From Nitrosopumilus sp. b3 (GTDB lineage: Archaea > Thermoproteota > Nitrososphaeria > Nitrososphaerales > Nitrosopumilaceae): a DNA stretch of 64,000 bases. The DNA is taken from positions 248,001 through 312,000 of the forward strand of contig NZ_MU078693.1 of NCBI RefSeq assembly GCF_014078525.1. The letters run 5' to 3'. The position numbers and the translations under genes were made by a program. The notes below the pieces were generated by a model. The model saw only the letters and a program-made list of their open reading frames with translations. It did not search any database and was not told the origin of the DNA. Below are positions 48,278 through 49,975 of this stretch, one piece after another (within the stretch, counting starts at the first letter, position 1; each line of letters begins with the position of its first letter).

Positions 48278-48589
48278 CTAGTTTTCTGCTTTTTCTTTTT
48301 TACTTTTTGACCACCATTCAAGATAATCATCATGCTTATCATCACGTGTTCTTTCTCTTTGATTTAATTTAAATCGAATATCGGAAATTTCTTCTCTTGT
48401 TGCATATAGTCCACATCTCTTACAAATGAAATGCCTTCTATTTTTTTCATCCATCTTCATTGGAATATCAATTTCATCAAATAATTTGAATAATGCATCT
48501 CTGCTTCTGTCTTCTTCTGGAAAATCTTCTATATACTTGGCTTCTATTTTCTTTTTCTCTCTTGATGTACATTCTGGACAGTTAGGCAC
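48278..48589 (-). CDS. Zinc-ribbon protein, unknown function
   Basis: 103 residues from GTG 48,589. CPEC near residue 4-7 and CKRCG near 58-62 make a zinc ribbon pair, separated by charged segments; the C-terminus is basic and acidic (RERTRDDKHDDYLEWWSKSK). First gene of a two-gene unit. Function unknown; nucleic-acid binding is a guess. Confidence 0.78.
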   Translation of the reverse strand: MPNCPECTSREKKKIEAKYIEDFPEEDRSRDALFKLFDEIDIPMKMDEKNRRHFICKRCGLYATREEISDIRFKLNQRERTRDDKHDDYLEWWSKSKKEKAEN

Positions 48590-48650
48590 TGCTGATTTTG
48601 CTTAATTTTTTCCATAAAAGCGTTCCCACATAATGTAGTGATCGTTATTA

Positions 48651-48718
48651 ATCTGACACGCGGATTTTTTCATCATCCCTTGCGGTCCGTTCGCCCATCG
48701 AAATCCCGCGTGCCAGAT
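48651..48718. other. Long GC-rich hairpin, candidate RNA or regulatory element
   Basis: 48,651-48,667 (ATCTGACACGCGGATTT) pairs with 48,701-48,718 (AAATCCCGCGTGCCAGAT) over 17 base pairs with one bulged base, around a 33-base loop (GCGGTCCGTTCGC inside) that can itself form a small hairpin. The stem is far richer in G+C than the flanks. It lies between two minus-strand genes, without an open frame and without a U-run after the stem, so it is not a standard terminator. Confidence 0.7.
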
Positions 48719-48742
48719 GAGAAAAATTCTTAAAATAATCTA

Positions 48743-49975
48743 TTATCTCTTTTCTTCTAAAATTTGGGCTGCAATTCTTGCTGAATTTTCTGCTCCATTT
48801 GGAACAAAATTTTTTGAAAATTCATGTAAATTTCCCTCAAATACTTCATAATCTTTCTTAATTTTGGAAATTGCATCAATTACTTGTGAAGTTTTAGTAG
48901 CTAGTACTCCTAAATTCTTTTCTTGTGCCCATAAGATGTTATTTGTATGCTCATCATAAACTGGAATTCCAATAATTGGTTTTGATTTCCCACCCATTAT
49001 TTCACCCATGACAGTATGTGAGCCATTGACTACTGCATATTTGCATAAATTCAATATTGTATCCTTTTGATTCTCAGATAGAAAACCAATATCAATTTGT
49101 ATCCAATCTATTTTTTTATCTAGTGCTTCTGTAATAGAATATTTTTTACCATTTTTGTCTGTTACAGAATCTAGGTTTGATTCATCTCTTGCATGTGAAA
49201 TAATTCTTTTTTCATTTAGCATCTCTTTTTGATGAAAAACTTTTTCATATCTCTGGCCAGTTCCATCGTTTGTAGATTTATTTCCAGTTCTCATCCAATA
49301 CCCAAATTCATTATTTTCAACCAGCTTTTCAAGATCTGTTTTTTCTTCATTTTGAATTTTATTACTAGTAAAATGTCCTACATAGATAACTTTCTCTTTA
49401 ACCTCATTTATGAAATTTAGATTATATTCACACATTGTATATGGTGGTGGGGAATCTGCAACTAGGATTTTTGTAGCTTTTGCAATTTGTTTTGCAACAA
49501 AAATTAATGATGGATAAAGATATGCTCTTGAATTGTATAGTTTTGGCCTAAATTGGTTTGTTACAAATAAACTGGGGATATTTCGATTTTTTGCTAAAAT
49601 ATTTGAACCCATATCCCCATCATTAATTACCAAATCAAATTTTTCTTTATTGTAGAGTTTTCTTTCTTCTCTCAAATAATTTGCAATTTGCCTTACAAGT
49701 GGTGGATTTTTAGAAATTGGTAATAGCAGATTCATTAAAGACATTGTTACACTTGGTCCAAACTTTCCATCAATTGGAGTTGGCATTAATATCTCATGAA
49801 TTTTCTCCTTTTGATCTGGAAATTTCTTTAATAATTTTTCATAAACATGATCCTTACTTGAGAAATGAACTTCAAATTTTTCTTTTATATGATCTTCTAG
49901 TACTTGATTAAGTCTCATCATTCTAGAATAGTGCCCACTTCCCCAAGGATAGATGAATTCTCCTATTTTGAGCAT
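48743..49975 (-). CDS. Glycosyltransferase, GT-B fold (MurG/MGDG synthase-like)
   Basis: 410 residues. N-terminal GEFIYPWGSGHYSRM (the G-x-G-H loop of GT28-like enzymes), DLVINDGDM and a C-terminal donor domain with VNGSHTVMGEIMGGKSKPIIG and YDEHTNN, the usual G-x-x-x-E and E-x-x-N elements. Likely transfers a sugar to a lipid or surface molecule. A 30-base gap to the ThiI-like gene upstream on the same strand suggests co-transcription. Confidence 0.85.
   Translation of the reverse strand: MLKIGEFIYPWGSGHYSRMMRLNQVLEDHIKEKFEVHFSSKDHVYEKLLKKFPDQKEKIHEILMPTPIDGKFGPSVTMSLMNLLLPISKNPPLVRQIANYLREERKLYNKEKFDLVINDGDMGSNILAKNRNIPSLFVTNQFRPKLYNSRAYLYPSLIFVAKQIAKATKILVADSPPPYTMCEYNLNFINEVKEKVIYVGHFTSNKIQNEEKTDLEKLVENNEFGYWMRTGNKSTNDGTGQRYEKVFHQKEMLNEKRIISHARDESNLDSVTDKNGKKYSITEALDKKIDWIQIDIGFLSENQKDTILNLCKYAVVNGSHTVMGEIMGGKSKPIIGIPVYDEHTNNILWAQEKNLGVLATKTSQVIDAISKIKKDYEVFEGNLHEFSKNFVPNGAENSARIAAQILEEKR

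Follow-up and report, generated by a model that had tools for sequence, protein, structure and literature searches.

Within the 64,000-nucleotide stretch of Nitrosopumilus sp. b3 analysed here (the window), the minus strand carries a small RNA gene that is best explained, with a probability of about 0.7 and on comparative sequence evidence, as a stem-closed guide RNA with a single box C/D-like motif, which would direct 2'-O-methylation of C1402 (Cm1402) in 16S rRNA. That the RNA gene and its structure are real is close to certain. The features discussed below are the following.

48652-48719, minus strand: small RNA gene (covariance-model match G000:C1:296652-296719; extent from the model, transcript ends predicted)
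48706-48717, minus strand: 5' strand of helix P1 (12 of 12 pairs changed on both sides)
48652-48663, minus strand: 3' strand of helix P1 (same 12 pairs)
48692-48700, minus strand: putative guide C GAUGGGCG, positions 11 to 3 before box D' (invariance and exact 16S complement)
48686-48689, minus strand: box D'-like CGGA (C and GA the same in all 64 sequences)
48678-48685, minus strand: stem-loop CC-GCAA-GG between D' and C', candidate C-helix of a kink-turn (99% of cells pair, and each of the two pairs changes on both sides)
48670-48676, minus strand: box C'-like AUGAUGA; family pattern RUGANGA, its UGA and GA unchanged in all 64 sequences
48741-48746, minus strand: TATA-like ATAATA, -27 to -22 (across 64 aligned upstream regions, A+T is at least 0.88 from -27 to -24)
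48747-48754, minus strand: BRE-like GAAAAGAG, -35 to -28 (sequence, and in the same 64 regions a peak of A from -33 to -31)

A first-pass annotation of this DNA had pointed out a hairpin at 48651-48718, and the sequence is as it was described: a GC-rich stem with one bulge (a 12-pair core, 48717-48706 with 48663-48652 on the minus strand, followed by A-U pairs that include the bulge), a GC content of 0.42-0.43 over the hairpin against some 0.24-0.36 around it (100-nt windows), the motif ATGATGA at 48676-48670 on the minus strand, and no T-run 3' of the hairpin. The single-sequence fold is moderately unusual, with a minus-strand folding energy of -26.9 kcal/mol (z = -2.6) equalled by 3 of 200 dinucleotide shuffles. 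It is conservation that tells the hairpin from a chance product. Covariation across species had been proposed as a check: in 64 sequences (63 distinct) fitted to the covariance model, all 12 P1 pairs show two-sided changes, with 96.6% of cells paired, so that both strands differ in sequence and yet stay paired; of all cells 95.1% pair, as against 71.6% in shuffles, and none of 500 shuffles reaches the covariation score. An independent MAFFT alignment of 15 rows concurs (two-sided changes in 10 pairs, with none of 500 shuffles reaching the score). Four antisense matches of the palindromic stem had been excluded by a stricter cut-off. Covariation and conservation thus bear out the suggestion that this AT-rich archaeon has here a gene for a structured RNA. 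Inside P1 the layout runs from a variable joiner to the guide, then C-N-G-A, a stem-loop with two pairs or more, R-U-G-A-N-G-A and an A-rich joiner. A hairpin P2 proposed by RNAalifold within the loop (UUCG-AUGGG-CGAA) was rejected: both its outer pairs are kept in only 42 of the 64 sequences, and the hairpin is broken in 22, while the guide is kept.

The family is widespread. A nucleotide search of 61 genomes returned near-full-length copies (E of 4e-39 or better) in 29, all of which belong to the same genus, represented by 37 genomes; there the copies share flanking gene ends; more divergent copies change their stem in step on both sides. With a first covariance model built from 15 sequences, matches were found in 217 of 300 genomes of the order (167 of the 197 of high quality; 51 of 64 genera), nearly always single, with two in G054 and in G272, and a more sensitive search matched 35 of 40 chosen genomes. 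A second model, built from 64 sequences, matched 77 of 398 phylum-wide genomes, nearly all within the order; weak matches outside it came from G331, G338, G348, G611 and G623. Scanning GTDB contigs for the pattern gave hits in records named Thaumarchaeota, Cenarchaeum, Nitrososphaera, Methylarchaceae, Geothermarchaeota and Bathyarchaeota. The scan yielded 80 loci among 110 matching stretches, all 80 being scored alongside 10 other loci; 30 of the 80 (counted by hand) reached E <= 0.001, values that are flattering since the loci were pre-selected on the core, and these comprise 29 archaeal loci and one bacterial locus. The latter (L170, Sphingobium) looks coding and was set aside as a chance match. 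One group of loci (family f2: L144, L149, L150, L151) retains the guide and the D'/C' motif with P1 short or absent. No Rfam 15 family reaches its gathering cut-off in the window (the best weak match has 17.9 bits against a cut-off of 100), and we found no report of the RNA in the open-access literature on small RNAs of ammonia-oxidizing archaea, a corpus that leaves subscription journals mostly uncovered. What emerges is a single-copy, housekeeping-like RNA family, widespread in these archaea, without a match in Rfam 15.

The hairpin lies between two minus-strand genes, one glycosyltransferase-like (48743-49975, weak Pfam match) and one encoding a C-x2-C zinc-ribbon-like protein (48278-48589, without a Pfam match); a tRNA search of the window found none. 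The TATA-like element shares nucleotides with the stop codon of the glycosyltransferase-like gene upstream. The peak of the BRE/TATA signature (-33 to -23) would place the start of transcription near the first base of P1, and the RNA is presumably expressed from this promoter of its own. The first-pass annotation had also entertained a 5' element of the zinc-ribbon operon, and a cis-acting leader or attenuator would fit an RNA that lies just upstream of that gene, on the same strand, in a synteny kept through the genus. Between the two, however, a conserved promoter-like (BRE/TATA) block, GTGGGAACGCTTTTATGG (48606-48626, minus strand), stands a short way ahead of the zinc-ribbon GTG start codon, which suggests a separate, and probably leaderless, transcript. 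Elsewhere unrelated genes adjoin: glycosyltransferase and zinc ribbon are the context in the genus, whereas at L039 and L041 the RNA follows genes that we read as aconitase-X-like from their proteins, and in other genomes it directly precedes tRNA genes. This variation between lineages speaks against the RNA acting in cis on the zinc-ribbon gene, an explanation that we now hold to be very improbable. Even less credit can be given to a mobile or repeated element, also raised at the outset on account of a structure with long GC-rich complementary arms: a genome-wide search for copies, as had been advised, finds one full copy in the 1.79-Mb genome (six other matches span 14-28 nt, none with an E value better than 0.26), the arms covary between species, and synteny is kept in the genus.

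A same-strand tRNA gene lies at most 60 nt downstream of the RNA in 12 of 60 scanned loci, and in six of these (L105, L111, L112, L183, L198 and L237) it is tRNA-Ala(CGC), some 5 to 50 nt away; two loci, L195 and L116, may belong to one genome. The proximity to tRNA-Ala(CGC) suggests that the two genes are cotranscribed and that tRNA enzymes process the transcript.

ATGATGA had been likened to a box C (kink-turn) sequence, and this likeness holds throughout the family, where the motif behaves as one half of a kink-turn. Facing it across the short stem-loop is the box D'-like element, the second base of which is U in 39 of the 64 sequences, G in 14, C in 10 and A in one; it reads CUGA in most other lineages and CGGA here. 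Both G-A dinucleotides and the adjoining C-G pair are invariant, and would form tandem sheared G-A pairs. The internal D'/C' motif of archaeal box C/D sRNAs, CNGA with RUGANGA, is therefore present, in the same layout as the D'/C' kink-turn or k-loop described for these RNAs (PMC7994747, PMC3608112). Counting against a guide, position 2 of box D' and position 5 of box C' are unpaired in 22 of 63 sequences. Of the first reading of the locus, an RNA gene with a box C-like motif is supported, and the operon and mobile elements are not; it missed box D', the guide and the rRNA target.

We regard 16S C1402 as the likely target of a C/D-like guide. Ahead of box D', the stretch GAYGGGC is invariant in 64 of 64 sequences and the next base is G in 61. 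Its sole varying base, U or C, is opposite G1405, and either pairs with G. In the rRNA locus of the same genome (6.1 kb), CGCCCGTC occurs once, at the decoding centre of 16S rRNA, and the guide complement CGCCCGUC has one site, an exact one, at 16S C1400-C1407; we number the target after E. coli from the universal 1392-1406 primer site. Nine base pairs join guide positions 3-11 to 16S C1400-G1408, and G48694, the N+5 nucleotide, faces C1402. Known guides are 10-12 nt long beside box D or D', with position 5 opposite the modified base, and such is the arrangement here, with positions 1-2 unpaired. These two positions do not pair with A1398 and C1399, and position 2 is A in 62 of 64 sequences though G would pair, both of which speak against a guide. 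Position 3 is A in three of 64 sequences, and in two of the genomes concerned (G265 and G277, where 16S was found) no compensating change exists in the rRNA; these genomes of about 0.8 Mb retain the RNA (L113, L126) with its guide so weakened. A free complementarity search of the rRNA locus gave a score of 24, against maxima of 24-32 in 30 shuffled targets, which by itself is not beyond chance; of 336 permuted versions of the motif, 8 find an exact site somewhere in 16S or 23S rRNA. The case rests on three things taken together, namely that the match is exact, that the guide does not vary and that N+5 falls on C1402.

The 16S site is intact wherever 16S rRNA was found (31 of 61 genomes in one scan). 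In a second scan we read an exact site in 15 of 16 matching genomes; the sixteenth, G030, gave only a two-mismatch match, unlike 16S. Genomes without a 16S match are mostly fragmented assemblies, from which 16S is presumably missing. Two of the predicted protein partners are encoded: Nop5 and fibrillarin genes, which an archaeal box C/D sRNA would need, are adjacent in this genome, and fibrillarin was found in 59 of 61 relatives, in 56 of them above the curated cut-off.

The proposed mechanism would then be as follows. Transcribed from its own minus-strand promoter, the small non-coding RNA would fold so that the long helix P1 holds open a loop with the guide and one D'/C' kink-turn. L7Ae would bind this kink-turn and recruit Nop5 and fibrillarin, while the guide, 5'-CGAYGGGCG-3', would pair with 16S C1400-G1408 in helix 44, at the decoding centre. 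C1402 would face the guide nucleotide five positions ahead of box D' and so receive the 2'-O-methyl group. P1 would thus stand in for the terminal C/D kink-turn and the second guide, and the role of the RNA would parallel that of snR70/U43 in eukaryotes and of RsmI in bacteria.

RsmH and RsmI are the bacterial enzymes that make m4Cm1402. They modify the same nucleotide as protein-only enzymes, where an RNA guide would act here. In eukaryotes the same nucleotide by position is Cm1639 of yeast and C1703 of human 18S rRNA, served by snR70 and U43 (SNORD43); the guide here presumably resembles that of U43. These are standard snoRNAs with terminal C/D boxes, unlike our RNA, and the likeness is one of position. 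In the literature, yeast Cm1639, guided by snR70, is conserved in E. coli and human (PMC8307265), E. coli m4Cm1402 and the yeast Cm are tabulated side by side (PMC2584109), human C1703 is the target of SNORD43 (PMC6466398), and the entry for chicken U43 gives a guide of 10 nt on the 5' side, which makes it a D' guide (PMC2653536). Against the guide reading, the tabulation lists no modification at 1402 for H. volcanii (PMC2584109).

Two other ways of accounting for the conserved loop deserve to be weighed. A box C/D-like RNA bound to this same 16S site might serve as a chaperone or checkpoint in the assembly of helix 44 and guide no methylation at all, as might be expected of an RNA with one motif only, with guide positions 1-2 unpaired and with a target in the functional core of the small subunit; yet the N+5 position falls on precisely the nucleotide that is methylated in bacteria and eukaryotes, and fibrillarin is present, which makes this unlikely. 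We deem it slightly less probable still that a kink-turn RNA uses its invariant loop on another target (the 23S A-loop, a tRNA, an mRNA) or for direct protein binding. The A-loop has the top pairing score in rRNA (25), but the canonical pattern for it is unmatched in this genome, where the A-loop, GCTCGCC, has a mismatch that breaks the pairing; as a target it also leaves the U/C change at position 8 unexplained, while the exact universal match is 16S 1400-1407.

How does such a guide relate to known ones? With the double-guide box C/D sRNA of archaea the RNA shares D' (CNGA/CUGA) and C' (RUGANGA) around a short loop, a guide just upstream of box D', the N+5 rule and the Nop5/fibrillarin genes. 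It differs in that the former has terminal C and D boxes and a second guide, where a covarying helix of at least 12 pairs is found here. In the family no terminal kink-turn of box C (RUGAUGA) and box D (CUGA) is seen, P1 taking its place. As the terminal motif is absent, the RNA is strictly not a standard box C/D sRNA, yet it probably works like one. Nor is it an H/ACA sRNA: no conserved ANA follows P1 on its 3' side (by eye, 64 sequences), and the 3' strand from box C' to P1 is A-rich and variable, unlike a two-sided pseudouridylation pocket. In the minimal single-domain C/D snoRNA, one C/D motif and one antisense element suffice, a finding of Deryusheva and Gall (2019) as related in PMC7994747, and these are what we find here; the kink-turn of the minimal snoRNA sits on a terminal stem, however, while ours is internal and in D-then-C order, as if by circular permutation. 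Against a single motif, PMC8413462 holds that archaeal guide RNAs need both motif pairs.

The possibility of a group of such guides in Nitrososphaeria and Bathyarchaeia, permuted-like, with a single motif, acting on 16S C1402 as a half-RNP or an RNA dimer, we put forward tentatively, at somewhat short of even odds. If it exists, one motif is enough for an archaeal box C/D RNP to work, contrary to current models; two motifs per guide RNA are no universal need in archaea; and RNA guides may have directed methylation of this nucleotide of the decoding centre before archaea and eukaryotes diverged. Were Cm1402 guided, one and the same decoding-centre methylation would be made by protein in bacteria, and with guide RNAs in eukaryotes and these archaea.

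Some relatives bear on the origin of this architecture. In G611 (L148), a distant archaeon, a stem is followed by a C-like GUGAGG, the guide, CUGA, AUGAAGA, a second guide, CUGA and the stem, i.e. the same guide and box D' in what appears to be the canonical C-D'-C'-D layout; this RNA has weak matches to the archaeal C/D families sR3 and sR14. The Bathyarchaeal L145 and L147, by contrast, are stem-closed (by eye). With both forms at hand, the stem-closed one may derive from a canonical guide. A four-box C/D scan of the window found none. A C-D'-C' pattern matched 7 times in the whole genome and once in a reversed control; by eye no convincing terminal D is seen, and at least some look coding. 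Finally, a weak model match in G348 (L146 1001-1061, minus strand) apparently lies inside the intron of a tRNA gene; it has the stem-closed layout of guide, CUGA, loop and GAUGAAGA, with a different guide, and single-motif C/D-like elements may thus occur in archaeal tRNA introns too.
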